In this document: positions 3,146 through 33,989 of the stretch, piece after piece
Layout: every line of letters starts with the position of its first letter
How positions within the stretch are numbered: position 1 is the stretch's first letter
IMG/VR virus record: IMGVR_UViG_3300044844_000513
Span: 1 to 40,760 of that record
Direction: 5' to 3' (one strand)
DNA length: 40,760 nt
From: a virus
Notes under the pieces: generated by a model
What the model saw: the letters and a program-made list of their open reading frames with translations, nothing else
What the model was told of the DNA's origin: nothing
The model's database searches: none
Translations under genes and position numbers: made by a program

Positions 3146-3979
3146 TCAAACAATCGCCGGGGTCTTTGGCGTCTTCGTCCTGAGTTGTGACCAATCGCAA
3201 TAGGCCTGCTCGAAGAGGGAAAAGGAGCGATGTCCTAGGTGAAGCCTGCCGGCTCCGGCCTGGGACATTTCGCAGTGAGTCGCCCCGCTGCGCCGCAGAA
3301 ACTTCGATGTGCCGCCAATGCCGACTCCGTCGATCAGATCCCTCATGAGCCGCTGTGCCTGCCGCCGCTTGCACACCCAGCCGAGGATCGTGCCGTCGGT
3401 CGACCCGGCGATCATCTGGTCAACCGCCGACAAGCAGGCCGGCGTGAGCGACCTGGTCATCGGGTCGCCCGTCTTAGATTGCGTCCAAGCGAGCGAGTCG
3501 CCGTCGATGTGCTCCGACCGGAACGACATCACGTCGCCGAACCTCGCACCGCACTCGTAGGCCAAGAGCACCCAGCAGCGGAGGAAGAGGCCGAGGTCGG
3601 CACCGCTGCGGAGCCGGTGGCCTTCGTGGGCCTTGGTCGCCTCCACCAGCGAGCGGAGCTGCTCGATCGTCCAGGCCTTCGTAGGGCTTTTGCGACTCTT
3701 GATCCGCATCACGCCACGGGGGGCCTCGGCGATCATCCCGGTCTCGTAGCCCCAGCGGTAGAGCGTGAGGAGGATCGTCCGCTCGGCCCTGACCGTGGTC
3801 GAGGCCTTCTCCGCAGAGATGGTGCGGAGGTAGGCGTTGACCCGCTCGACGCTCACCTCGCCGCACCTGGCCGAGATCCGCATCACGTTCTCGCCGTAGT
3901 AGCGGGAGACAATGCGGTCGGCCAGGTACGCCGTGGCGACACGTCCGAACGTCTGGATCGTTGGCTTTTTGATCTTCAC
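3146..3979 (-). CDS. Tyrosine recombinase (second integrase-like)
   Basis: A 277-residue tyrosine recombinase, which breaks and rejoins DNA through a 3'-phosphotyrosine. A SAM-like core-binding domain spans about 10-90. The catalytic domain shows R146 (CGARFGDV), K169 (QSKTG), R229/R230 (FLRRSGATH, the HxxR-type box), H247/H250 (LHLGHRS) and Y260 (QAYCDW). All catalytic positions appear present, so it is probably active. The start is GTG at 3979, overlapping the previous stop as GTGA. It lies on the strand opposite to the other integrase (7617-8537) and inside the early replication block. It could act as a Xer-like dimer resolver or a second integrase; the sequence does not decide. Confidence 0.8.
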   Translation of the reverse strand: MKIKKPTIQTFGRVATAYLADRIVSRYYGENVMRISARCGEVSVERVNAYLRTISAEKASTTVRAERTILLTLYRWGYETGMIAEAPRGVMRIKSRKSPTKAWTIEQLRSLVEATKAHEGHRLRSGADLGLFLRCWVLLAYECGARFGDVMSFRSEHIDGDSLAWTQSKTGDPMTRSLTPACLSAVDQMIAGSTDGTILGWVCKRRQAQRLMRDLIDGVGIGGTSKFLRRSGATHCEMSQAGAGRLHLGHRSFSLFEQAYCDWSQLRTKTPKTPAIV

Positions 3980-7616: not shown

Positions 7617-8537
7617 ATGTTCCAACGATCCGGCCCGACCACGCTCGGCGAGTATGTCTCGCACTACGGGCTATTTCACGATTGCAAACCCGAGACCCTT
7701 CGGCAGTATCAGATCTCGGTCGGCATCTTTAGCCGGTGGGCGGGTGGGAATGTCCCACTAGAATCGCTCGACGCCGAGAGCGTTTCGGCCTGGATCCGTG
7801 ATTATGCGGCCACCGGCGTCGCACCGAACACGGTCCGCAGCAAACGCAATCACATCCTGATCATGTGGCGGGCCGCAGCCGACGAGGGCCTCTGCGAGCT
7901 GCCGACCCGACGGGTCCGCCCGGTGCGGGTGCCGTGGATCGCCCCGACCTGCTGGACCCGCGAAGAGGTGCAGCGGCTCGTAGACGCCTGCTCTAGGCTG
8001 AAACGGTGGCACAAGTGCGGTATCCGACGCTCCGAGTGGTGGGCGCTCGCCGTCCGGGTCGCCTGGGATACGGGCCTCCGGTGGGAAGACCAGGTCGCCC
8101 GCCTCCGGATCGACCAGATCACGCCCGACGGGATCGTCGCCATGCCGCAGTCGAAGACCGGCAGGGTAGTGGTCTGTAGGCTCTCTGAAGCCACCCTAGA
8201 GGCATTGCGGCTTTCGGTGGCCGATCACCCTCGGACGCTCGTAACGCCCTGGGCCGCCTCGCACGAGACCTTTAGCAAGCAGTTGAAGCGTTTGGTCCGG
8301 TTGGCCGGCATCCGATCCGGCACATGGAAATGGGTCCGCAGGGCTTCGGCCACCGATGTCGAGATTCAGTCGCCACGGGGAGCCTCGGAGCACCTCGGCC
8401 ATACGCCCGGCTCGATGATCGCCGAGCGTTCCTACATCGACCCGGCGATCGTGGGTGCGAACCGGCTGCGGTCAGCCCCTCGCCCACTCTCCCTTAATAC
8501 CCCCCCCCCCCCCCCACTTTGCCAAAGTGTCCAGTGA
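7617..8537 (+). CDS. int: Tyrosine integrase
   Basis: A 306-residue phage integrase, inserting phage DNA at a host attachment site. The core-binding domain (about 5-100) has the ETLRQYQISVGIFSRW helix and NTVRSKRNHILIMW. The catalytic domain has R155 (DTGLRWED), K180 (PQSKTG), R241/R242 (VRRASATD), H259/H262 (EHLGHTPG) and Y273 (RSYIDP). It lacks an obvious N-terminal arm-binding domain. The gene is rightward, opposite to most of the window, and next to the partial tRNA. The tail after the active-site Tyr runs through 15 consecutive C bases (8501-8515), so the last 15 or so residues depend on that count. No strong RBS is seen before the ATG. Confidence 0.88.
   Translation: MFQRSGPTTLGEYVSHYGLFHDCKPETLRQYQISVGIFSRWAGGNVPLESLDAESVSAWIRDYAATGVAPNTVRSKRNHILIMWRAAADEGLCELPTRRVRPVRVPWIAPTCWTREEVQRLVDACSRLKRWHKCGIRRSEWWALAVRVAWDTGLRWEDQVARLRIDQITPDGIVAMPQSKTGRVVVCRLSEATLEALRLSVADHPRTLVTPWAASHETFSKQLKRLVRLAGIRSGTWKWVRRASATDVEIQSPRGASEHLGHTPGSMIAERSYIDPAIVGANRLRSAPRPLSLNTPPPPPLCQSVQ
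8501..8515 (+). repeat. 15-base poly-C tract in integrase 3' end
   Basis: Fifteen consecutive C encode a poly-Pro end of the integrase. The tract is long enough to slip in replication and is also a common sequencing error site. A length change alters only the residues after position 292, beyond the catalytic Tyr. Confidence 0.85.
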
Positions 8538-16124: not shown

Positions 16125-17069
16125 CTAGGCTGATTTTCCAGCCGGTTGCCAGTTGGCAAATCCCGGTTTTTCTCGGGAGTTGGCGAGGATTTCGGACAAT
16201 TTCGCAGCGGCGTCGGGCGTGAAGCGACGGGCGACGATGCCGTCGAGCACCTTGCCGGAGGCAATCTCTGCCTTCCCGTTGCAGCAGTGCTGGAAGATCA
16301 ACTCGCCGTCGGAGTCGTGCTGGCAGATCGCCGGATGTCGGTAGGCCGGGTTGCGTGGCGGCATGTGGTAGCGGGCTCCGAGAAGGTGCCAAGCGAGGAG
16401 CCAGCAATCCTTATCTCCGTAGACCACGCCGTAGGTGATGTCGCTCCACTCATTGAGGAAGACGGCCACCTCGCAGGCGGCAATATGCCGGCGGCGATTG
16501 ATGAGGAGCTGCCCGCTCTCGAAGGGTCGAGCCGTCGGCACGGGCTCCAGGCCCACGAGCCGCCAGGCGGCCTCCGGCACCCACTGCCCACGCTCGCGGG
16601 TCGGCGGCAGGTCAGGCCAAAACATCGCACCCGCTCGCTGGTAGGCCGTGTCGTTGAAGAGGTAAGCCGGGTCTTTCGCAGGCACATTGTCGGCGTCGAG
16701 GAAGAGCACCTCGGTAAAGCCGCTGTGTCTCACCGCAAACGCCTTAAGCCACCAGCCGGCGTCACGGGCTCCGAGTGGCCTTGTGCGGGGCGTGATGCCG
16801 ACGCTGTCGCTCGACACGAGTCGCACGCCGTCGAGCCCTGTGAAGGCTGCGGCGAGGTCTGGGGGCATCTCACCGGGCAGGTGCCAGATCTCGATCGGGA
16901 GGCGGCAGCCGAGGCCGCGGAGCACGGTGACGAGGTGCCAGGCGAGCCGGCCGTAGAGGTCGCCGCCGGCGGCGATCACGATCCCTTGCTGGGCGCGAAC
17001 GGGCGGCAGGAAGAAAGGCAGGCTGGCGACCTTGGCTGCTAGGGCCGAGCGAAACGGGGCGGGATCCAT
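16125..17069 (-). CDS. MNN1-type (alpha-mannosyltransferase-like) glycosyltransferase
   Basis: A 314-residue GT-A fold enzyme of the Mannosyl_trans3/MNN1 type. GIVIAAGGDLYGRLAWHLV (about 29-47) is the nucleotide-sugar strand. LFLDADNVPAKDPAYLF contains the metal-binding DxD (D125-A-D127). RPFESGQLLINRRRH and VYGDKDCWLLAWHLLG are the usual acceptor-side motifs. It would move a sugar onto a glycan or protein. GGAGG lies 5 bases before the ATG at 17069 but inside a hairpin (17073-17090). It is separate from the other sugar genes (25.8-28.5 kb). The 3' end carries a copy of the 14-base palindrome also found near 9.2 kb. Confidence 0.78.
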   Translation of the reverse strand: MDPAPFRSALAAKVASLPFFLPPVRAQQGIVIAAGGDLYGRLAWHLVTVLRGLGCRLPIEIWHLPGEMPPDLAAAFTGLDGVRLVSSDSVGITPRTRPLGARDAGWWLKAFAVRHSGFTEVLFLDADNVPAKDPAYLFNDTAYQRAGAMFWPDLPPTRERGQWVPEAAWRLVGLEPVPTARPFESGQLLINRRRHIAACEVAVFLNEWSDITYGVVYGDKDCWLLAWHLLGARYHMPPRNPAYRHPAICQHDSDGELIFQHCCNGKAEIASGKVLDGIVARRFTPDAAAKLSEILANSREKPGFANWQPAGKSA

Positions 17070-22805: not shown

Positions 22806-23562
22806 ACGTGTTTCTGCCAGTCAGGGCCGAGGAGTTTTTGGATCTCTTCCGGAGTCGCCTCTCTAGGCTTCACCTTCTTTGCGAAGGGATTTAATTTCTC
22901 CGGCTTCGTCGTGGGGGCGTGTTTGGCCTTGTTTATGTTTGCGTTTTGGGCGAGGAGGTTGGCGGTGTGCCACCAATCCATCTCTAGGCGGCTGTCTCTA
23001 GCGGTGAAGAGTTGTCGGAGGGTCCACTCGCCGGGATGGACGCCGAGGATTCCGGCGGCTTCGTAGATGGCATCCCAGACGCTCCGGTCAGGCTCTCCAC
23101 TGTTGCCGCTGCGAGACCCGCCTCCGCTCGTGCCGTCAGCTCCTGCGCCATTTCGTCCATTTTGGCGATTAGGAGCGCGACCATTCGACGGAGGCGAGGC
23201 GGGAAAAAATCGACGAGTTCCGCCTCAAGCGCTTTCACGCCCGCCTCCAATGCGTCGCCCTTCAGGCCTTCAAGGAAGTCTTCCTTGGTGAGTTTCTTCT
23301 CGTCGCACTGCTTGCGGCAGATCGCATAGAGGATCTCGCCGATCTTGCCGTATTGGCTGCGGAGCACTTCAAGCGTCCGAGAGATGTTGCCGGCGTCGAT
23401 CAGATCGAAGGGCTCGGTCCGCCGCTGCCGCTCGATACGGCCGTCGGCCTGCTCCACGTCGTCGGTCACGTCGATCGTGACCAGGCCCCGCACACGGTCG
23501 GCAGCCGCCACCGTCAGGGCCACCATCCACGGGCGGCCCTGGTCGTCTTTGAATTCTTTCAT
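22802..23562 (-). CDS. Tail assembly chaperone, -1 frameshift product (G-GT-like)
   Basis: A 253-residue fusion made when ribosomes slip -1 at TTTTTTC (23203-23209). It keeps residues 1-120 of the short form, then reads the -1 frame: a Gly/Ser/Asn-rich linker (ASPPSNGRAPNRQNGRNGAG), then a domain DAIYEAAGILGVHPGEWTL, RQLFTARDSRLEMDWWHTA and a basic tail ending LLGPDWQKHV. The -1 frame has no ATG, GTG or TTG before the domain begins, so frameshifting is the only evident way to make it. The stop at 22804-22802 overlaps the tape measure ATG. This matches lambda gpG/gpGT, which recruits tube protein to the tape measure. Confidence 0.88.
22984..23562 (-). CDS. Tail assembly chaperone, short form (G-like)
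   Basis: The in-frame 192-residue product: MKEFKDDQGRPWMVALTVAA, a beta-helix N-domain, SRTLEVLRSQYGKIGEILYA, then KKLTKEDFLEGLKGDALEAG and FFPPRLRRMVALLIAKMDEM. Past the slip site the zero frame runs on for 72 residues and ends in a Ser/Pro/Ala tail. It should coat the tape measure during tail assembly and is the more abundant form in known systems. The ATG overlaps the stop of the third tube-like gene (ATGA). Confidence 0.85.
   Translation of the reverse strand: MKEFKDDQGRPWMVALTVAAADRVRGLVTIDVTDDVEQADGRIERQRRTEPFDLIDAGNISRTLEVLRSQYGKIGEILYAICRKQCDEKKLTKEDFLEGLKGDALEAGVKALEAELVDFFPPRLRRMVALLIAKMDEMAQELTARAEAGLAAATVESLTGASGMPSTKPPESSASIPASGPSDNSSPLETAA
23203..23209 (-). promoter_or_regulatory. 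-1 ribosomal frameshift slippery site
   Basis: On the minus strand the zero frame reads GAT TTT TTC CCG, so T TTT TTC is a canonical X XXY YYZ heptamer in phase. Slipping back one base re-pairs both Phe tRNAs and opens a stop-free frame of 135 codons to 22802. The CCCGCC following may slow the ribosome. Confidence 0.88.
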
Positions 23563-23915
23563 CGCAATCCGCTCCTCGTCATCTTGGCCTCGATCGTAAG
23601 AGTCGCCACACCATCTACGCTGAACGTCTCGGAGACGCCGGTCACGACCGCCACAAACGACCAGCCGCCAGAGCCGCCGGAGACGCTCACCTCCGAGCCG
23701 GTCTCGCAGCTCGTAAACGCTCCGGCCGAATCGGCAGAGTCGTTGAGCTCGATCGAGACCGTGGCGTCGTAGCCGACGGAATAGACCTCGGACAGGCGCG
23801 ACCCGTAGGCGTTGATGTCGATTGTGCGGGCCGACTCTGAGATCGTGACGCTCCTCGCGCTGGCGATATTGCCGCCGACCGAGATGGAGCAGTCCTTTCC
23901 GAGAGTGATCGCCAC
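23559..23915 (-). CDS. Tail-tube-like protein, copy 3
   Basis: A 118-residue beta-rich protein, the third of three tandem genes whose products all begin MAITLGKD. It keeps the core pattern: SARSVTISESARTIDINAYG, SVGYDATVSIELNDS, a GSGGWSFVAVVTGVSETFSV strand pair and a C-terminal TLTIEAKMTRS. Siphophage tubes are stacked hexamers of such small beta-sandwich proteins. The start is GTG at 23915, 3 bases after the preceding stop. Its stop overlaps the chaperone start, the normal tube-then-chaperone order, which makes this copy a strong candidate for the true tube. Confidence 0.72.
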   Translation of the reverse strand: MAITLGKDCSISVGGNIASARSVTISESARTIDINAYGSRLSEVYSVGYDATVSIELNDSADSAGAFTSCETGSEVSVSGGSGGWSFVAVVTGVSETFSVDGVATLTIEAKMTRSGLR

Positions 23916-23918
23916 GGT

Positions 23919-24239
23919 TTAGCCCCTGCGAGCGGATACCGTGAAGGTGACAGCGCCGTCGATCGAGATGTTTTCGGTCACGCCCATGACAAGGAAGTTG
24001 CTCGTCGCCGTGTTGGTTTCAAGGGCCGCAATCAAGCCCGAGGCGTCGTGGCACTCGATCTCCCACATCTGCGTTTTAAAGCCGGCCTTGTTGGCCTTGT
24101 AGCCTGCGACGCCGGCAGCGCCGCCTTCGTTAGAGCGATTCGTCACGTCAATGACTTCGCACTCCTCCGTGAACGTCGCCGAGATGATGTCGGTGCCGAA
24201 AGGAGGCGTGCCGCCGTCTTTGCCGAGCGTAATTGCCAT
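23919..24239 (-). CDS. Tail-tube-like protein, copy 2
   Basis: A 106-residue paralog starting MAITLGKDGGTPPFG. It has SATFTEECEVIDVTNRSNEG, MWEIECHDASGLIAAL, then NFLVMGVTENISIDGAVTFT. The ending V-T-x-SIDG-x-T-F-T-V matches copy 1 (PIDGITTFTV) closely. AGGAGCC precedes the ATG at 24239. It may be a second tube subunit, a terminator ring or a decorated variant. Confidence 0.68.
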   Translation of the reverse strand: MAITLGKDGGTPPFGTDIISATFTEECEVIDVTNRSNEGGAAGVAGYKANKAGFKTQMWEIECHDASGLIAALETNTATSNFLVMGVTENISIDGAVTFTVSARRG

Positions 24240-24263: not shown

Positions 24264-24587
24264 CTACGAGTCGGCCCGCGAGCCAGACACGGTGAAAGTG
24301 GTGATGCCGTCGATCGGGTCGCTCTTGGCGATATTCGTGACGATGTACTCAACGTCGCCCGTAGTGCTTCCGCTCAAAGTGAACGTACCGCCGATAGAGA
24401 CGCCGGGGGTGTCGACGCACTCAAGCTCGACGGTCTGCTCGATGAGCGCCTTCTTGTATTTGCGAAAGCCTGCCGAGCCGTCGGCGAACGTGGTCACGTC
24501 GATCTCCGAGGCCGAGTTGCTGACGGTGCAACTGCGAGCGTTTGAAACGCCCGTGATCGTTACGTCTTTTCCGAGTGTGATTGCCAT
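24264..24587 (-). CDS. Tail-tube-like protein, copy 1
   Basis: A 107-residue paralog: SNARSCTVSNSASEIDVTTF, QTVELECVDTPGVSIGG, EYIVTNIAKSDPIDGITTFT. SARSxT-SxSAxxIDxxx in copies 1 and 3 and the shared N-terminus show recent duplication. GGAG precedes the ATG at 24587. It follows the tail-completion genes after a 92-base gap in which I see no gene or clear promoter. Confidence 0.68.
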   Translation of the reverse strand: MAITLGKDVTITGVSNARSCTVSNSASEIDVTTFADGSAGFRKYKKALIEQTVELECVDTPGVSIGGTFTLSGSTTGDVEYIVTNIAKSDPIDGITTFTVSGSRADS

Positions 24588-25360: not shown

Positions 25361-25819
25361 TTACTCCGGCAGTTGGTCGGCCGAGAAGACCCGGTAGGTC
25401 GCCGTGATCACCGCCCGCCAGGCGTTGCGTTCGCTCAGGGCGTCGTCGGGATTGAGCTCGATGGCGACCGTGATCGGGCTCGTCACGCCCTCCGGCCAGA
25501 CGACCGCCTCGCCCCACTCGTGCGACCGCACCTGGAGCAGGGCCTCGTCGGCCAGGTCGAGCATCCCGTCTACCTGGGAGTCGCTCTGGACGTGGCGACC
25601 GATGAAGACGGAGACCTCGTAGTCGATCTGGCTGACGTTGCGGCTGATCCGCGAGACCTCGGCCGATCCCGGCGTCACAAAGATCACCGGCTCGCCCATG
25701 GCGTCGAGGTCGATACTGACCCAGTTCTTCCGCTCAACCGTCGTCGAGGCGATCGACCACGTCACATCCTGCAGGCCAGCCGCAAGGGCATCAGCAATTT
25801 GTCGCAGGTAGGAGCTCAT
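25361..25819 (-). CDS. Tail terminator-like protein
   Basis: A 152-residue alpha/beta protein: SSYLRQIADALAAGLQDVTW, RKNWVSIDLDAMGEPVIFVT, ISRNVSQIDYEVSVFIGRHV, then ALLQVRSHEW and ITATYRVFSADQL. This order of helix, strand and long amphipathic segments resembles gpU-like terminators that cap the tail tube. It overlaps the end of the GT2 gene by 29 bases, so the sugar genes and tail genes are one transcription unit. Assigned by position and pattern. Confidence 0.6.
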   Translation of the reverse strand: MSSYLRQIADALAAGLQDVTWSIASTTVERKNWVSIDLDAMGEPVIFVTPGSAEVSRISRNVSQIDYEVSVFIGRHVQSDSQVDGMLDLADEALLQVRSHEWGEAVVWPEGVTSPITVAIELNPDDALSERNAWRAVITATYRVFSADQLPE

Positions 25820-26867
25820 TGGCTGTCCCGAGGATGCGGGCCATCGCCTCGACGTTGGCCGTCAGACGTTGGTCGTCTGGGCATCGTGCCACGGCCTCCC
25901 TAGCCAGCGTGAGGGCTTGTGGCCGCATCCCAAGCTCCCAGGATGCGACCGCTGCGAGGTCGAAGGCTTTTGCTAGAGCCTTGGGATCGTTGCAGTGGCT
26001 CGGAGCGTCTTCGGCCTTGATCGCCATCGAGGCGAAGGCGAGCACCTCCCGCCAGTGCCTTTTCCCGTAGTTGAGCCACGCCAGCCGCTCCCATGCGTCG
26101 GGCTCGCCGGGGGCCTCCTTGGCCGCCTGGTGCATCTCCCGCTCGTCGTGCGTCAGCCGGCAGAGCTGCCGCCGCGCGTAGGATCGCTCGGTGGCCGACC
26201 CGCCCGGCATCTCCAAGTAGCCGCGAAACTCCTCCACGGCGTCGGCGTGCATCCCGGCGTAGTCGAGCTCACGGGCCAGATACCAGCGAGCACGGGCGTC
26301 GTGCGGAGCCTCCCGCACCGCCACCCGCAGCAGCTCTAGGTCGGTAACGTGTTTCTTCCCGGCGTCGCGGTGGTGGTGAATCTCAAGGCCCTCGGCCACG
26401 GCCATCACCCGCTCGCCAGACCAGCAGACGAGGCCCTCGTGAGTCGCTGCCGACCAGCGGAAACCTCGGCGAGCGTGGACCCGGTCGGAGAGGAAGACGA
26501 GGCCCGGCCTGCCGTCGGCCTCCCACGACCAGACGTAGCGGTAGCGGAGGTTGTTGACGTTGTCGACCCAGGCCCGCTCGATCGCCTCCCGCCAGCCGGG
26601 CTGAAGTCGCTCGTCGAGATCGAGGCGGACGCAAACGTCGACATCGGGCGGAAGGTGCGAGAGGGAGAGATTGTGGGCATCGTCCCACCGCCACGGGCAG
26701 ACGTAGCCGGTCGACACGGTCACGCCACGATCGTAGAGCAGGTCGACCGTGAGATCGGTTGAGCCGGTGTCGGTGACGACCCGCACGTCGGCCTCCTTGC
26801 ACGAGTCGGCCCAGGCGACGCAGTGCTTGGCCTCGTTTCGGGCGAGGGCGTAGACGCCGATCCTCAT
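25791..26867 (-). CDS. GT2 glycosyltransferase with TPR-like C-terminus
   Basis: A 358-residue enzyme. MRIGVYALARNEAKHC opens a GT-A nucleotide-sugar domain, VVTDTGSTDLTVDLL (about 31-44) is the conserved GT2 segment, and RLDLDERLQPGW (81-92) gives the metal-binding DxD. From about 185 on, helical repeats with ARWYLARELDYAGMHADAVE and PQALTLAREAVARCPDD look like TPRs that could grip a protein acceptor. The ATG at 26867 overlaps the methyltransferase stop as ATGA. It may glycosylate a virion protein or phage/host glycan, working with the adjacent enzymes. Confidence 0.8.
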   Translation of the reverse strand: MRIGVYALARNEAKHCVAWADSCKEADVRVVTDTGSTDLTVDLLYDRGVTVSTGYVCPWRWDDAHNLSLSHLPPDVDVCVRLDLDERLQPGWREAIERAWVDNVNNLRYRYVWSWEADGRPGLVFLSDRVHARRGFRWSAATHEGLVCWSGERVMAVAEGLEIHHHRDAGKKHVTDLELLRVAVREAPHDARARWYLARELDYAGMHADAVEEFRGYLEMPGGSATERSYARRQLCRLTHDEREMHQAAKEAPGEPDAWERLAWLNYGKRHWREVLAFASMAIKAEDAPSHCNDPKALAKAFDLAAVASWELGMRPQALTLAREAVARCPDDQRLTANVEAMARILGTANELLPATNC

Positions 26868-27412
26868 GTGATCACCGCCGCCTGTCGGAGGCCGTCGTTG
26901 ATCCACTCGACCGACCGCTGCCGGTCGGCCACGAATTGCACGACCGCCGCCTTTACCTGGACGTTGTCGCAGTCGTCGGCCAGGATCGCCGGCACATGGG
27001 CCACGAGGTTGAGATCTTGCAGCGCCCCGGCGTAGGAGTGGTCGCCGTCGACGTGGGCGAAGTCTGCCGGCGGCAGGCTCCGCACGGTGTGGCTATCGAC
27101 CACGATCAGAGAAGCGTCGATCGCCCACCTCTCGACGACTGTCTTCCAGTGGGCGAGGCAGTCGATCGAATCGTCGTCCATTGCCCCATCAAGGCAGAGG
27201 TAGCGGGCGTCGGGGGCCGCCGTGGCGAAGACCGCCAGCGAGTAGCCGCAGCGGGTGCCGATCTCGATCACCCGCTTGGGTCGCAGGTCGGCGACGATCG
27301 TCGCCTTGCGGTAGTAGTGGCCCTCGACCCGCTCGTCGAGTTGAAACCAGTCGTGAGGCCGCCAGACCTCGGAGAGCGTCTTGGCGATCTTGTCACGAAA
27401 CGGGGATTTCAT
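26864..27412 (-). CDS. SAM-dependent methyltransferase (Methyltransf_24-like)
   Basis: A 182-residue class I methyltransferase. RVIEIGTRCGYSLAVF (47-62) is the SAM-binding motif I, YLCLDGAM the acidic motif II region, and FAHVDGDHSYAGALQDL (118-134) the signature of sugar or small-molecule O-methyltransferases of the Methyltransf_24 type. The ATG at 27412 overlaps the preceding gene by 20 bases; longer in-frame reading is a shadow. Between a GH130-like protein and a glycosyltransferase, methyl capping of a glycan is the likely job. Confidence 0.78.
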   Translation of the reverse strand: MKSPFRDKIAKTLSEVWRPHDWFQLDERVEGHYYRKATIVADLRPKRVIEIGTRCGYSLAVFATAAPDARYLCLDGAMDDDSIDCLAHWKTVVERWAIDASLIVVDSHTVRSLPPADFAHVDGDHSYAGALQDLNLVAHVPAILADDCDNVQVKAAVVQFVADRQRSVEWINDGLRQAAVIT

Positions 27413-28472
27413 GGAGCAGGGCCTCGATTCCCTTGGCTGGCACCTCGACGAGCCAGGCCTCGGCGTCACGCACGCCAAACGAGACGACCACGCGGTCGCC
27501 GAGCACGGCCAGCCCTGCGGCAAACTCGATCGCCCGCGTTTCCCGAAACGCGAACGGCTGCGAGATCCGCCGCAGAGCGAGAGCATTGTCGAACCAGGCG
27601 AAGCGATGCTCGTAGGCCCTCTGGCTGCCACTGAAGGCGACCTCGTGAATCACGGCGAGGTAGCCCTCGGCGAACGGCACGACCTGGCCGCCGCCGCGGA
27701 AGTCTTTGGCGATATGGGCTGCCGGCGATCGCTGGTGCATGAGCCACGCCCCGGCGAGCGTCGGGTCGGCGTCGACCGTCACGGTGTGGCCGGCGTGGCT
27801 GACGGCGTAGACCCAGCCACCACGCCCCTCGATCGGCATCCAGTTTTTCTCGTGCTCCTGGCAAGAGAGCGAGGAGAGGACGAAGAGATTCCGGAAGGTA
27901 GCGGAGTCGATGTCGAGGTCGGCCGTGGCGATCCGGCATGAGCCGTCGAACGGGGCAGCGTTTCGGACGGTGGCCGAGACGCCTATCCCAGTTTGGGTAT
28001 GCCGGAGGCGGCAGTCTTCGAGGCCGTCGACCGGGTAGTCGGTCGTCGGGTAGCCGGGGCCGGCGATCGGGCGGCAGTCTCGGATCGAGAGGTCAGGCCG
28101 GTAGCGAACGAGGAGGTTTTCGGTACGGATCACGCCGGCGTCGGAGGGCGGCATCTCGTAGCGGCCGTCGATGATCTTGTAGTTGCTCGACCGCACGATC
28201 GCGAGCAGCTCGTCGCCGTGGGCGAGGATCGTCGGGTTGAAGACCGACCAGCCCTCGTGGGCCGGCTCGATGTCGATCCGGTGGAAGCGGGCCTCGGCGA
28301 TCTCGTCGAGTGCCTGGGCGTACCAGAGGCGGTTGCTGCGGGTCTGCATCTCGACCTCCGGCGGCAGGGGAGTCGAGAGGAGTCGCTCGCAGGCGCGGCG
28401 ACCGCAGTCGAGCTCTCCGGCGTAAAAGGCGTGAACGGCGAGGGCAAAATCGTGCTCGTGCATGGCGAGCAT
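27393..28472 (-). CDS. GH130-like five-bladed propeller protein
   Basis: A 359-residue protein. Residues 1-65 are helical (AVHAFYAGELDCGRRACERL). The rest resembles GH130-type propellers, which cut or phosphorolyse mannosides: GWSVFNPTILAHGDELLAIV, DGLEDCRLRHTQTG, HEKNWMPIEGRGGWVYAV and VVSFGVRDAEAWLVEVP. The NPT, EDCRL and HEKNW blocks fit the family, but I cannot confirm every catalytic acid. No RBS is evident at the ATG 28472 or at M4. A binding-only propeller is the alternative. With the GT and methyltransferase it points to work on host or virion glycans. Confidence 0.68.
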   Translation of the reverse strand: MLAMHEHDFALAVHAFYAGELDCGRRACERLLSTPLPPEVEMQTRSNRLWYAQALDEIAEARFHRIDIEPAHEGWSVFNPTILAHGDELLAIVRSSNYKIIDGRYEMPPSDAGVIRTENLLVRYRPDLSIRDCRPIAGPGYPTTDYPVDGLEDCRLRHTQTGIGVSATVRNAAPFDGSCRIATADLDIDSATFRNLFVLSSLSCQEHEKNWMPIEGRGGWVYAVSHAGHTVTVDADPTLAGAWLMHQRSPAAHIAKDFRGGGQVVPFAEGYLAVIHEVAFSGSQRAYEHRFAWFDNALALRRISQPFAFRETRAIEFAAGLAVLGDRVVVSFGVRDAEAWLVEVPAKGIEALLHEIPVS

Positions 28473-28561
28473 TTTCGCCGGGCCGTCAACTGCCGGAGAG
28501 GGGGTCGGGAGGCTCTACCCTCAATGGAGAGCGCAGTTGGCAGGATGTTCGCTCAATACGG

Positions 28562-28708
28562 TCAGCGCCCGCGTCGGCGGTTCTTTGCCTTCCAGTAGGG
28601 CGAGTGCGGGTTGTACGGCGGCTCCTGCCGGGCCTTCGCGATCACCAGCGGCAGGAACATTAGGACGGTGACAATGACCACGACTAGGTACTGATTGCTT
28701 TCGTTCAT
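28562..28708 (-). CDS. 48-residue single-pass membrane peptide
   Basis: A short gene with GAGAGGG before its ATG at 28708. One membrane helix is obvious (YLVVVIVTVLMFLPLVIA, 7-24), followed by a basic, Pro/Tyr tail with KARQEPPYNPHSPYWKAKNR. Positive charges on the C-side predict an N-out, C-in topology. It stands alone between a 257-base intergenic region and the GH130-like gene. Its function is unknown; a superinfection-exclusion peptide or membrane anchor for the sugar enzymes would fit. Confidence 0.62.
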   Translation of the reverse strand: MNESNQYLVVVIVTVLMFLPLVIAKARQEPPYNPHSPYWKAKNRRRGR

Positions 28709-28965: not shown

Positions 28966-29841
28966 TCAGTTCCCGCAGTAGCCCTCGCACTCGTCCTGAA
29001 ACCCGCGAAGGTGGGCGAACATATTCGTCTGCCCGCTTTTTTCGTCGGCTGGCCGTAGGTCAACCTGCTCTAGCGGCACGCACGCCTTGTGCAGGAATCG
29101 GTGGGCATCGAGGCCCGTGCCTGTGCGGCATACCTTGTCGATATGAACGGCCCGCTCCCAGCCTTTCGGGTCTTCGTCACGCAGACGCCGCCATTCATCG
29201 TTCGACTTGAACGGGCAGAATACGCACGCGGATCGCGGCACCTCGTAGGACAGCCTTTGCTTGAGGTATGCCATGCAATCGCCCCGCGTCATTTGCATGT
29301 CCCACAGCGGGAAATGCACCCTCCAGTTGGATGGTTTGGCGAGGAATCGCTGCTTCACGCGGATCACCCGCTTGGGCTCATCGAATGACAGCCCCATGTA
29401 CTGGTGAACAATGACATCTTTCGGCAGCGGCCTCCCGAACTGCCCGCCGCAATGCTCGCGGATCAGCCGCTCAATCGGCTTGACTTTGAAATCAGCCGTG
29501 CATTGCCGCTGAATGATTCCCTTGTCTCCTGTCTGCGGATTGAGCGTATAGGCCGGAATGGAGATGTAGTGGCCGCCGTCCGTTCGCTGGTTGCCCTTGG
29601 CGTCCGAGCCTTGATCCAAGGCGTCCCCAAGTCTGCCCGCAGTCGTCACAATGATCGGCGGCCCGCCTAGAGTCTTGAGGTGCTCAAGATGCCTGTAGAC
29701 CTCGTCCGGCTCCTCCTGAACATCCGCAAAGATCGCAGCGTCAAACCGTGGCACCTCTGGCTCGCTGCCGTCGATGCTCATGAGATACAGGGCCGTGGAC
29801 TGCACGCCAGCCCCCAGGTTCAGGAAGTGGTGTTCAGGCAT
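28966..29841 (-). CDS. PP-loop (PAPS-reductase-like) adenine nucleotide hydrolase
   Basis: A 291-residue protein of the adenine-nucleotide alpha-hydrolase fold. LGAGVQSTALYLMS (about 9-22) is a PP-loop variant; IIQRQCTADFKVKPIERLIR holds the conserved Cys/Arg stretch of PAPS-reductase-like proteins; CVFCPFKSNDEWRRLRDEDP is a Cys pair typical of this phage subfamily. Members activate substrates with ATP for sulphur transfer or nucleotide modification; the phage ones are uncharacterised as far as I know. The ATG at 29841 overlaps the upstream gene by 8 bases. A DndC-type DNA phosphorothioation role is not supported, since no dnd partners are present. Confidence 0.76.
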   Translation of the reverse strand: MPEHHFLNLGAGVQSTALYLMSIDGSEPEVPRFDAAIFADVQEEPDEVYRHLEHLKTLGGPPIIVTTAGRLGDALDQGSDAKGNQRTDGGHYISIPAYTLNPQTGDKGIIQRQCTADFKVKPIERLIREHCGGQFGRPLPKDVIVHQYMGLSFDEPKRVIRVKQRFLAKPSNWRVHFPLWDMQMTRGDCMAYLKQRLSYEVPRSACVFCPFKSNDEWRRLRDEDPKGWERAVHIDKVCRTGTGLDAHRFLHKACVPLEQVDLRPADEKSGQTNMFAHLRGFQDECEGYCGN

Positions 29842-30154
29842 CGTCGGTGCTCCAAGTGGTGCCGCTGGCGTCCACGATCATGTAGGACCGTTGGGCCAGC
29901 TCCTCGCGGAGCCGGTCTGCCAGATCGCGGGCAGTGTTCCGCAGGGTGTAGGCATCGGTCGGGAATCGTGGGTAGTTGCGAAAGCCCACGACGAAGCCGG
30001 TTTCCTCGCCGCCCTTGTAGATGAACGTGGTCGGGGTGACGGTGACGCAGCAGCAAACGTCGCGGCAGAATCGCCGGATCACCTGCTTGGCGTGGTCGAT
30101 GTCGCCAGCCATGAAGACTTCGACAACGTGCGTCGGCTCGTGCTTTGCGTCCAT
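29834..30154 (-). CDS. Small protein of unknown function
   Basis: A 106-residue alpha/beta protein: EPTHVVEVFMAGDIDHAKQV, IRRFCRDVCCCVTVTPTTF, FRNYPRFPTDAYTLRNTARD, LADRLREELAQRSYMIV. A run CCCV in the core and a closing helix suggest a compact ferredoxin-like fold. Overlap with the PP-loop gene (8 bases) links them; it could be a partner subunit. Not recognised. Confidence 0.58.
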   Translation of the reverse strand: MDAKHEPTHVVEVFMAGDIDHAKQVIRRFCRDVCCCVTVTPTTFIYKGGEETGFVVGFRNYPRFPTDAYTLRNTARDLADRLREELAQRSYMIVDASGTTWSTDDA

Positions 30155-31365: not shown

Positions 31366-31983
31366 TCAGACGACACGCCAGACGGAGGAGGTCGAGTCGT
31401 AGACGAGCAGAGCCGCGCCGCCGCGAGTGTCGAGCACATAGTTGCCCTGCCACGGTACGGCAAACTGTGCGTTGCCGTTGGGGCCAGTGGCATGATTAAG
31501 CGTGATTGAGCCCGTCGTGCCGACGTTCACAAAGAGCTTGCTATCGCCATCGATGCCCGTGATCCCGAGGCCCTGCAGCGAGACGCCGGTCGTCGCCACC
31601 AGGCGGTAGATGTCGCCGCTGCCGGGGTTGTAGCCGGTCACGGTGACGGCCGAGAGGCCGGTCGGCGTCACGACGACGTTGGTGTAGCTCAATCCCGTAG
31701 GCCCCGTTACGCCTGGCCCAGTGCTGCCCGTGGGTCCGGTGACGGTCGAGGCCGCACCAGCGGCTCCGGCAGATCCCGTTGCGCCTGTAACGCCCGTGGC
31801 ACCGGCTGCACCGGCGCTGCCCGTGGGGCCGGTTACGCTCGCGCCGGTCGGCCCGGTTACGCCCGTTGGCCCAGCGATGCCGCTGCCGACGAGCTCCCAG
31901 GCTTGGCCGTTCCAACTGTAGGTACGCCCGCCCGTGGTCGTCTGCTGGTTGAGCGTCGGCGAGGAGGGGAATGTCAGGGGCAT
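31366..31983 (-). CDS. Collagen-like fibre protein
   Basis: A 205-residue protein. [20 protein letters not shown] and [11 protein letters not shown] form an N-terminal attachment module. Residues 37-96 are a Gly-X-Y collagen-like stretch rich in GPTG and GATG, expected to trimerise. The C-terminus is beta-rich with [25 protein letters not shown] lies about 10 bases before the ATG at 31983. Virion collagen-like proteins usually make head or tail fibres. Confidence 0.75.
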
Positions 31984-31994
31984 TGTTTAAGCCT

Positions 31995-32765
31995 TTATGT
32001 GATGGCCCATTTTGTTTGTAAGTAAGACTCTACCGCTTCGCGGTCGCCTGCTGAGAGGGCCACGTTGTACGTGATGAGCTCGGCTAGGTCGCCATCAAAG
32101 TAGCCTGCGTATCCGCCGCCAATTTGAGCGGATACGCCGTCAAGAAATCCGAAGCTGCCTATTGAAGCCGACGCCGTTCCGGAAGCTCCATTAACGTAAA
32201 TAGTGATTGCTGAAGACGAATAACGTGAAGTGAAACACGCCCAGTCACCTATCGAATATGACTTTACGGACTGAGTGTGACCATCTTCTCCATAACCGTA
32301 TGATCCGACAGCATTGCTTGAGCGAAACGCAAAAAGTCCGGTCGCGCCATATGCGGGGTCGTCCTGAATGATCGCCGCGTTTTCCTGCGATAAACTGGAG
32401 TCGCTCGCAGCACTCGACGCCACCGCCACTGCAAAAACCGTGTGCTGCGTGGCCGCCAAGAGATTGCCGATCGAAAATGACGAAGATGCCATCATTGATG
32501 ATGAAAATCGCAATACATCAAGACCGTTCCTGATTGATGTCTTTCTAGTTGGGCGAATTGAGTTGTTGCTCTGTGTCCAGTTCCGCCCGCTCCCGCTCTT
32601 GTCTTGCCAGCGAGCGACGCTGCCATCGGCAGAGACTTGCGATCCGCCCGAAGTAGCGTCAAAAAGTGTCGAAGAGTCTGAGGCGTCCCACCAGCCAGAA
32701 ATTCCAGCAATCATCGACGGATAAATCGGCTGAAGTCGGCAAAACATCCCAGCCTTTCCCCTCAT
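31995..32765 (-). CDS. LamG-like fibre protein 1
   Basis: A 256-residue concanavalin A-like protein. [49 protein letters not shown] and [20 protein letters not shown], then [10 protein letters not shown], match LamG-type phage lectins closely. It should bind glycans or stabilise fibres. The ATG at 32765 overlaps the collagen-like gene stop as ATGA. Lower GC than the flanks suggests swapping by recombination. Confidence 0.76.
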
Positions 32766-33661
32766 GACAGATCTCCCACGACGAGCCAAGTGTCGCCCGC
32801 GTAGCGGATCGCCGTGGCGGCTGAATACCTCGCCCGTAGGTTGCTGCCCGGCGTTGCGTTGACTGTCACGCCCGTCGCTCCGGTGACCCGCACAGCGGCA
32901 ACGCCGAGCCGAGCGACATCGACATGAGTGCCAGTTGGGAAGGCGACCGAGCTGGCCGGCGGTATCGTGACGGTGATCGTGCCGGTGGCAGCGTCCATCG
33001 TCACGAGTTTGCCGGCGTCGGCGAGCACGAGCGTGTAGCCGGTTGCGAGTGCGTTGATGCTTTGGGCGTCAGAGAAGGAGCCTGCCGGTCCGGTCGGGCC
33101 GGAGCTGCCAGTTGGGCCGGCAGACGGTCCGGTAGGCCCGGTCACGACGCTCGCAGCGCCCGTACTGCCCGTGTTGCCCGTAGGGCCGGTCACGGTGCTC
33201 GCAGCGCCAGTCGGCCCGGTCACCTGTGGGCCAGTTGGCCCGGTCACGGTGCTCGCAGCGCCCGTAGCCCCGCGCTCGCCCTGGACGCCGATCTCGATGA
33301 ACTGCGAGCCGTAGCGGACGTAATACTTTCCGGTTGAGTCGTCGAGCCAGATGGCACCGGCCACGGTTAGGCCGGCGGCCGTCGGAGCCGTCGGGCCGGT
33401 CGCCGCAAAGGCAATGCCGCCCGTCACGCCTGTCGGCCCGGTCACGCCTGGGCCGGTGCTGCCCGTGACTCCCGTACTGCCCGTAGGCCCGTTGCTCAGA
33501 TCGACAGGCCCGCTCGGCCAGCCGCCGATCTCCTTCGGGCCGTAGAGCAGCTTGTTGCTCCGGTCGATGAAGAGATCGCCCACGTTGCCGACAGCGCCGG
33601 TAGGCGCACCGCTGCCCGCGAGAACGGGAGAGCCACCAGTCGGTAACGAGTAAAAAGGCAT
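32762..33661 (-). CDS. Long collagen-like fibre protein
   Basis: A 299-residue protein. The N-terminus ([20 protein letters not shown], then [20 protein letters not shown]) is an anchoring module. Gly-X-Y repeats with GPTG/GSTG occur at about 55-75 and 155-190. Between them lies an [22 protein letters not shown] block shared with the next gene. A beta C-terminus ([16 protein letters not shown]) ends it. The ATG at 33661 is chosen because longer in-frame sequence shadows the upstream gene. A trimeric head or tail fibre is expected. Confidence 0.76.
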
Positions 33662-33668
33662 GTGTCGC

Positions 33669-33989
33669 TCAGGTGTAGTGCTTGCCGCCGACCTCGACCC
33701 AGAGGCCGGCGTAGCGGGTGAAGTATTTCCCGGTAGCCGTGTCGAGCCACGTCGAGCCGGTCGCCGCGGATCCGGGGGCGGTTTCGCTCTGGTAGACCTC
33801 GCCAGCACCGGCAGGGCCGGTCGGCCCGGTCACCGATGAGCCAGCGGATCCCGTCGGCCCCGTGGCACCGATTCCACCGAGGAGCGAAACGGCGGCCCGC
33901 TTCGTTACGCCGCCTTGCACGATCGGCACCTGGTCGACGCCGGTCACGCCGGTCGCGAGCGTCAGTTGTGAGATTTTCTTTGTTGCCAT
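33669..33989 (-). CDS. Short collagen-like structural protein
   Basis: A 106-residue protein: [20 protein letters not shown] at the start, a short collagen-like patch ([20 protein letters not shown]), then [20 protein letters not shown]. The latter block recurs in the 299-residue neighbour as [13 protein letters not shown]. The ATG shares one base with the previous stop. It may be the base of the fibre encoded next. Confidence 0.7.

Follow-up and report, generated by a model that had tools for sequence, protein, structure and literature searches.

Genes at the Locus

The window, meaning the whole stretch of DNA that was analysed (40,760 nucleotides, IMG/VR record IMGVR_UViG_3300044844_000513), belongs to a freshwater phage and carries on its minus strand three overlapping open reading frames (ORFs), which were confirmed as real genes and encode a GH130-like propeller, a methyltransferase and a GT2 glycosyltransferase with a TPR domain. 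These genes and those considered with them are as follows.

28562-28708: separate 48-aa ORF, inside the interval (ending at 28708) given to the cassette in the original prediction
27393..28472, minus strand: GH130-like five-bladed propeller with N-terminal helices, first constant flank of the cassette
26864..27412, minus strand: SAM methyltransferase (Methyltransf_24, PF13578), variable middle slot
25791..26867, minus strand: GT2 glycosyltransferase with C-terminal TPR domain (phrog_13126), second constant flank, proposed initiating enzyme
25361..25819, minus strand: putative tail terminator/completion gene, named from its position and its 29-nt overlap with the GT2-TPR ORF
16125..17069, minus strand: MNN1/MNT2-like glycosyltransferase, outside the cassette, possible further partner

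The GH130-like and methyltransferase ORFs overlap by 20 nt, and the methyltransferase and GT2-TPR ORFs by 4 nt (ATGA), so that the three sugar-related genes do overlap one another as originally predicted. The further overlap claimed with a tail terminator gene is present, while the name of that gene comes from position only, since no profile confirmed the identity of 25361..25819. The placement of the cassette within the late structural genes is likewise supported, and its orientation and overlaps suggest that it would be expressed late in infection. A PAPS-reductase-like gene lies directly upstream of the cassette. No prophage or host link was found for this phage, and the cellular matches, which stem from a cassette gene, name no host.

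Enzymes Encoded by the Cassette

The GH130-like protein reaches 11 bits against PF04041, below the cut-off of 26, and by sequence alone the likeness is weak; because of this score it is classed here as GH130-like and not as a member of GH130. The likeness was settled by a fold search together with a deeper profile comparison. The AlphaFold model (pLDDT 90) is a five-bladed GH130-type propeller, whose best matches in the PDB are GH130 (mannoside) phosphorylases (E 3e-11, TM about 0.5-0.6), and in the deeper comparison Asp153 of the sequence GLEDCR aligns to the catalytic GVEDPR motif (hhalign E 1.9e-5). A profile search of the PDB with the alignment of this protein returned mainly designed propellers and one weak match to Lin0857, and the homologue from Ignavibacteria scores 31.3 on PF04041, above the same cut-off. 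The phage protein thus shares with the mannoside phosphorylases Lin0857 and Uhgb_MS the propeller fold and the catalytic Asp in G.EDxR, but differs in its identity of less than 20%, in its score below the Pfam cut-off and in its extra N-terminal helices. Its role is probably synthetic and not the breakdown of mannosides, because in bacteria its relatives are fused to glycosyltransferases.

The GT2 protein matches the profile of phrog_13126 (phage beta-1,4-glycosyltransferase) over its whole length (E 4e-73, residues 2-343). Its model (pLDDT 93) has a GT-A fold with a DxD motif and a helical acceptor domain, and the nearest matches to its fold are the peptide glycosyltransferases SunS/ThuS (E 5e-15), along with the TPR domain of OGT. 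SunS and ThuS are the closest solved folds and also combine a GT-A domain with a helical domain acting on peptide, but they target a cysteine of bacteriocins and are only 14-16% identical to the phage protein. The SunS family model (TIGR04195) gave no match for the GT2 of the window, and the DSL-LC01 homologue scored 17.6 bits against a cut-off of 350. The methyltransferase is above the cut-off of its family (PF13578, E 3e-9, 38.1 bits versus 26.3).

Outside the cassette, the MNN1-like protein matches PF11051 (E 3e-30, 106 bits versus a cut-off of 22) and the solved structure of MNT2 (7xjv, E 1e-7). Its gene, which had been tentatively placed in one decoration pathway with the cassette, is real, and the enzyme may belong with the cassette, as it occurs on 6 of 11 cassette-bearing contigs versus none of 18 cassette-free ones; the proposed pathway membership is possible on these counts. 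A check of catalytic acids by alignment had also been proposed, and when it was run Asp153 in its G.EDxR motif was found to be kept in 34/34 phage rows and 48/49 cellular rows, D83xD85 of the GT2 protein to be invariant (35/35), as was the DAD motif of the MNN1-like protein (8/8).

Conservation and Variation of the Cassette

Relatives of the GH130-like protein are encoded on 87 viral stretches and those of the GT2 protein on 224, of which the best 80 were kept in each case, and both outer genes occur in the same order at 127 viral loci. These two genes are constant, and the slot between them holds zero to three genes encoding methyltransferases, FkbM, GT2 or GT34-like proteins, or one unnamed family. 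The methyltransferase of the original prediction is therefore real, but it stands in an interchangeable slot that had gone unseen, since in relatives it is swapped out, joined by others or missing. The unnamed middle-slot family (~235 aa, 'TGYVRL/WVDFG') was considered as HtrL/YibB, an assignment that was dropped as no match was obtained in Pfam, PHROGs or NCBIfam.

Collagen-Like Neighbours in Phages and Bacteria

Upstream of the cassette in the window, at a distance of about 3-5.5 kb, are three threonine-rich collagen-like genes, and direct reading of their products gives the following candidate acceptors.

31366..31983, minus strand: collagen-like protein, proposed acceptor, with runs such as [27 protein letters not shown]
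32762..33661, minus strand: collagen-like protein, proposed acceptor, with similarity to a tail protein (PHROG minor tail protein, E 4e-16); [42 protein letters not shown]
33669..33989, minus strand: short collagen-like protein, proposed acceptor; [15 protein letters not shown]

The repeats of the window are brief and broken up, with about 29 triplets falling in runs of at least 5. In a second phage lineage, a survey resting on full-length relatives of the window GT2 found a Thr-rich Gly-X-Y ORF within 5 kb of the GT2 gene in 38 of 46 loci, 15 of which had a Gly-X-Y ORF within 300 nt, versus 0 of 13 loci for a control glycosyltransferase of the same second-lineage phage (Fisher p 5e-8, the sequences not being independent). 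The end of a collagen-like ORF lies 70 nt ahead of the GT2 gene in a faecal phage fragment picked by its GT2 alone, and DSL-LC01 has two collagen genes upstream. Thus, at the level of the family, the glycosyltransferase gene adjoins a Thr-rich Gly-X-Y gene, in the manner of SgtA and BclA. Among window-type phages, Gly-X-Y threonines are more numerous with the cassette than without it (27 versus 12, p 5e-4); zero Gly-X-Y triplets were counted in the cassette-bearing group L076, and of the 12 phage groups that are free of the cassette, 3 (L227, L361, L379) have more than 60. A strict dependence on collagen in these phages was rejected, as runs of at least 10 triplets gave no clear split and the looser count, while significant, was not absolute. 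The cassette and the collagen-like genes both lie in the variable fibre region, and the linkage in phages could partly reflect this shared location.

The same enzymes are found beside collagen-like proteins in several lineages of bacteria. In a test blind to collagen, the GT2 gene was present in 2 of 115 Alphaproteobacteria, and no genome other than these two had 10 or more Gly-X-Thr array matches, the arrays lying close to the GT2 gene in both. In Mesorhizobium/Bradyrhizobium the order GH130-like, methyltransferase, GT2 is kept next to giant Gly-X-Thr proteins, and a bin of Ignavibacteria contains GT2-TPR, GH130-like and collagen genes together. No collagen was found near the GT2-GH130 fusions of Actinomycetota.

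Proposed Function and Alternative Explanations

The cassette probably O-glycosylates threonines of the phage's own collagen-like virion proteins or fibres, a target that is proposed because relatives in both phages and bacteria adjoin threonine-rich collagen-like proteins; the sugar, the acceptor and the virion location of the glycosylation are what we infer. Late in infection, the GT2-TPR enzyme would bind the Gly-X-Thr chain soon after synthesis, in the groove of its TPR domain, and would attach the initial sugar to threonines. The GH130-like enzyme would then lengthen the glycan by running towards synthesis, either as a mannosyltransferase or as a reversed phosphorylase, and the enzymes of the middle slot (in the window, the O-methyltransferase) would cap or diversify it. 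In phages that encode it, the MNN1-like enzyme may contribute one more sugar, and the resulting fibres would bear a surface glycan differing between otherwise similar phages.

The original prediction had left the choice between virion glycosylation and the rebuilding of host surface glycans; the virion half is supported and gains a named target in collagen-like Gly-X-Thr proteins, whereas the host half is not, and the virion is the more likely target. The likely acceptors just upstream, and the tie of the same enzyme set to collagen-like proteins in bacteria, had not been seen. That the enzymes remodel the glycans of the host surface at a late stage of infection, for superinfection exclusion or release, appears quite improbable: among the variants of the cassette, no partner of the lipid-carrier, flippase or Gtr type was recognised, the GT2 fold is SunS/ThuS-like with TPR, and the bacterial homologues are linked to collagen-like proteins, although phrog_13126 is categorised as host takeover and remoter jumbo-phage GT2 homologues, lacking collagen nearby, are annotated as LOS-type glucosyltransferases.

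It is unlikely, though less so, that the cassette acts on another virion protein (capsid, tail tube, cement protein or LamG-like fibre) and that the collagen link reflects a shared fibre region. The position between head and tail genes, the little or no Gly-X-Y in some cassette-bearing phages (L076, L018) and the glycosylation of mycobacteriophage virions at capsid and tail-tube C-termini (as cited in PMC12619734) fit such a target, but bacterial homologues, which have no virion, still adjoin Gly-X-Thr proteins. Glycosylation of the phage DNA is hardly credible; DNA is a possible substrate of phage glycosyltransferases (as cited in PMC12619734) and the PAPS-reductase-like gene might be thought of in this connection, but the genes are nested in and overlap late structural genes, the GT2 enzyme has a TPR acceptor domain, no gene for modified-base synthesis was recognised in the cassette, and bacterial homologues neighbour collagen-like proteins.

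Beyond glycosylation of the phage's own collagen-like proteins, we tentatively consider a broader scheme, which has somewhat less than an even chance of being correct: a modular system dedicated to collagen glycosylation and common to tailed phages and to several lineages of bacteria, where GT2-TPR would start the glycan on Gly-X-Thr, the GH130-like propeller would have turned glycan-builder and swappable genes would set the fibre glycotype of each phage, as an O-antigen-like polymorphic locus in a virion operon.

Relation to Known Systems

Collagen-like domains are common in phage fibres, while their modification is hardly known, and the linkage described here amounts to a named candidate enzyme-substrate pair. 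It suggests a role for the phrog_13126 glycosyltransferase family, at present categorised as host takeover, and draws attention to a branch related to GH130 that probably serves synthesis. Through its exchangeable middle slot, the cassette would allow phages that are nearly identical to carry different surface glycans, with a bearing on adsorption, protease resistance and recognition.

A prophage collagen produced recombinantly on its own carried no glycosylation (PMC3368898). SgtA of Clostridioides difficile, whose gene adjoins bclA3, attaches an O-linked sugar in vitro to the Thr of GPT repeats (PMC7157674), and this system, like the glycosylated BclA of Bacillus, resembles the phage cassette in its glycosyltransferase gene by a collagen-like gene and in the O-linked Thr sugar that is proposed for the phage. 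The likeness of SgtA to the phage GT2 drawn here is one of gene neighbourhood and proposed Thr target; spore proteins are modified there instead of virions, and a GH130-like partner and a variable slot are not described for SgtA-BclA3 in the literature consulted. Glycosylated mycobacteriophages (Freeman et al. 2023, as cited in PMC12619734) are alike in that phage-encoded enzymes act on tailed-phage virions, the targets in that account being capsid and tail-tube C-termini; among the 60 GT2-matching records listed, the organism groups included no Mycobacterium phage. Mimivirus, to which a lysyl hydroxylase and a glycosyltransferase for collagen are ascribed (as cited in PMC8968730), similarly modifies its own collagen, but it is a eukaryotic giant virus whose sugar is linked to hydroxylysine by an unrelated type of enzyme.

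Organization and Variability of the Cassette

The late genes of the window (an IMG/VR virus record, 40,760 bases) lie on the minus strand. They run from terminase, portal, protease-capsid, cement protein (PF09956) and head-tail joining (PF25138) genes, through collagen-like and LamG-like fibre-type genes and a PAPS-reductase-like gene, to a trio of enzyme genes, 3' of which stand a putative tail terminator, tail-tube-like paralogues and the tape measure. The trio comprises:

27393-28472, minus strand, GH130-like protein
26864-27412, minus strand, methyltransferase (Methyltransf_24)
25791-26867, minus strand, GT2-TPR protein

Successive genes overlap by 20, 4 and 29 nt, the third figure being for GT2-TPR and the next tail gene. 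This gene order and these overlaps bear out the original prediction of a sugar-modification island among late genes, and the layout suggests that the trio is expressed late. The PAPS-reductase-like gene directly upstream (28966-29841, minus strand; phrog_424, E 2e-36) and its neighbour (29834-30154) are both kept in the related locus L013 and absent from many relatives.

Both outer genes are present in 127 viral loci, always in the same order. The middle slot between them holds a Methyltransf_24 gene in most loci, a methyltransferase plus FkbM in L027 and L054, a GT34-like gene in L023, and is empty in L059; elsewhere an unnamed family of ~235 aa supplies one or two genes to it, with or without an extra GT2 or methyltransferase, to a maximum of three genes. 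This family (TGYVRL...WVDFG), frequent in the slot (L038 9017-9724, L114 2245-2940, L148 4325-5050 and others), gave no match in Pfam and PHROG searches. The cassette is dispensable for this phage type, since it is absent from relatives with capsid proteins 74–80% identical (L216, L227, L238, L243). An apparent DNA-methyltransferase and other accessory genes occupy the slot preceding the tail terminator in the cassette-free relatives L271 (3430-4722, 6420-7589) and L251 (5197-5805), and thus this slot is a general accessory hot spot. Among contigs long enough to reveal it, the gene of a separate MNN1-like glycosyltransferase (16125-17069 in the window, minus strand) was found in 6 of the 11 that carry the cassette and in none of the 18 that lack it (p 0.001, the sequences being related); its product is securely related to PF11051/MNT2, and its DAD is invariant.

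Folds and Catalytic Residues

The GH130-like protein scores 11 bits against PF04041 (cut-off 26). Its AlphaFold model (pLDDT 90) has GH130 phosphorylases and the mannoside synthase Uhgb_MS as best solved matches, and in hhalign a profile combining 34 sequences from phages with 49 cellular ones aligned with true GH130 (E 1.9e-5, probability 77). This alignment places GLEDCR (Asp153) onto the GVEDPR motif, which holds the GH130 catalytic Asp. Asp153 is conserved in all 34 phage rows and in 48 of the 49 cellular rows; the latter were selected by the EKNWMP motif, whose own conservation therefore carries no evidential weight. In the GT2 protein, D83xD85 is conserved in 35/35. The nearest solved structures to its model (pLDDT 93) are the SunS/ThuS peptide S-glycosyltransferases (E 5e-15), followed by GT-A enzymes and the O-GlcNAc transferase TPR domain. 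The TPR part also weakly matches the peptide-binding domain of collagen prolyl 4-hydroxylase, a similarity that is suggestive only.

Association with Collagen-Like Proteins

Within the window's phage type, the region from the head-tail joining gene to the terminator gene was compared between 27 cassette-bearing phages (near-duplicates removed) and 12 cassette-free ones. Thr in Gly-X-Y triplets was higher in the former (Mann-Whitney p 5e-4), and at least five such Thr occurred in 25/27 versus 6/12 (p 0.006); the association, though strong, has exceptions.

In the Actinomycetia phage DSL-LC01 (OQ999401), a GT2 39% identical is preceded by a pair of collagen genes, a hypothetical gene and a halogenase gene. 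The halogenase (L169 6433-8004), of tryptophan-halogenase type (PF04820, E 6e-50), may modify the same fibres. Among viral relatives of this GT2 with at least 5 kb of upstream sequence, a Thr-rich Gly-X-Y ORF lies within 5 kb of GT2 in 38 of 46 (within 300 nt in 15), as against 0/13 for an unrelated DSL-LC01 glycosyltransferase used as control (Fisher p 5e-8, with non-independent sequences). In a faecal phage fragment found solely through its GT2, a collagen-like ORF stops 70 nt short of that gene. The jumbo phages PaBG, Lu11, HRDY3 and Erwinia pEa_SNUABM_39 have GT2 matches that are more distant and for the most part partial, and no collagen was found near these; the link is therefore a property of the full-length GT2-TPR clade.

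Scanning genomes with the GH130-like alignment gave 46 loci, 26 with Thr-rich Gly-X-Y nearby, many of the remainder being short contigs. In Mesorhizobium and Bradyrhizobium, GH130-like, TylF-like methyltransferase and GT2-TPR genes stand in phage order, adjoining collagen-like proteins of up to 474 triplets with about one Thr per triplet. A single 1263-aa ORF of Mesorhizobium L433 (6936-10727, plus strand) unites GT2-TPR, GH130-like protein, a DXD sugar transferase and TylF-like methyltransferase, and adjoins giant Gly-X-Thr proteins. The L433 and L429 genomes contain 1025 and 888 Gly-X-Thr matches, respectively, on a single strand in each, and those among the matches listed sit at the GT2-TPR/GH130-like locus. 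The closest GH130-like homologue (42%, two copies within one protein) is in an Ignavibacteria bin that also encodes two GT2-TPR proteins, a DUF6445 protein and a GATGPQGPIGNT collagen. Actinomycetota GT2-GH130 fusions are mostly without nearby Thr-rich Gly-X-Y.

In a collagen-blind test, a GT2 profile search over 115 Alphaproteobacteria matched two genomes; the Gly-X-Thr pattern matched 12, with at least 10 matches only in the two GT2-positive genomes (p 1.5e-4). All 32 matches in the newly found one, G087, lie 5 kb from GT2. Adjoining its GT2-TPR gene and Gly-X-Thr protein is a gene (L578 10607-12427, minus strand) for a GlcNAc-transferase (PF11397, E 1e-71) with a 2OG-Fe(II) oxygenase-like domain, possibly a collagen hydroxylation and glycosylation pair.

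Proposed Pathway and Alternatives

The directly supported parts of our proposal are anatomy, folds, residues and linkage. GT2-TPR would initiate a glycan at threonines of collagen-like fibres, the GH130-like protein would lengthen it, and the middle-slot enzymes would cap it; we infer the acceptor and donors, the order in which the steps occur, the location in the virion and the benefit to the phage. The proposed first step resembles that of C. difficile SgtA, encoded next to the collagen-like bclA3: using UDP-GlcNAc, SgtA adds the first sugar to GPT repeats in vitro (PMC7157674).

Collagen-like proteins are the likely acceptor, and modification of another virion protein appears rather unlikely. 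The late island itself was rightly predicted, and of the two roles originally offered for it, virion decoration is the better; remodelling of the host surface is less favoured and would be quite improbable, and glycosylation of DNA is very improbable indeed. The analysis adds to that prediction a likely acceptor, the variability of the slot and counterparts in bacteria. Collagen-like protein O-glycosylation and phage virion glycosylation are the known types to which the system would belong, and a literature search of partial coverage found no description of such a cassette.

Other Features of the Window

Two tyrosine-recombinase-type integrases (PF00589), at 7617-8537 (plus strand) and 3146-3979 (minus strand, below the PF00589 cut-off), suggest a temperate phage. 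Three consecutive paralogues at the tail-tube position (24264-24587, 23919-24239 and 23559-23915, minus strand), each beginning AITLGKD, are retained by almost every relative of this phage type.
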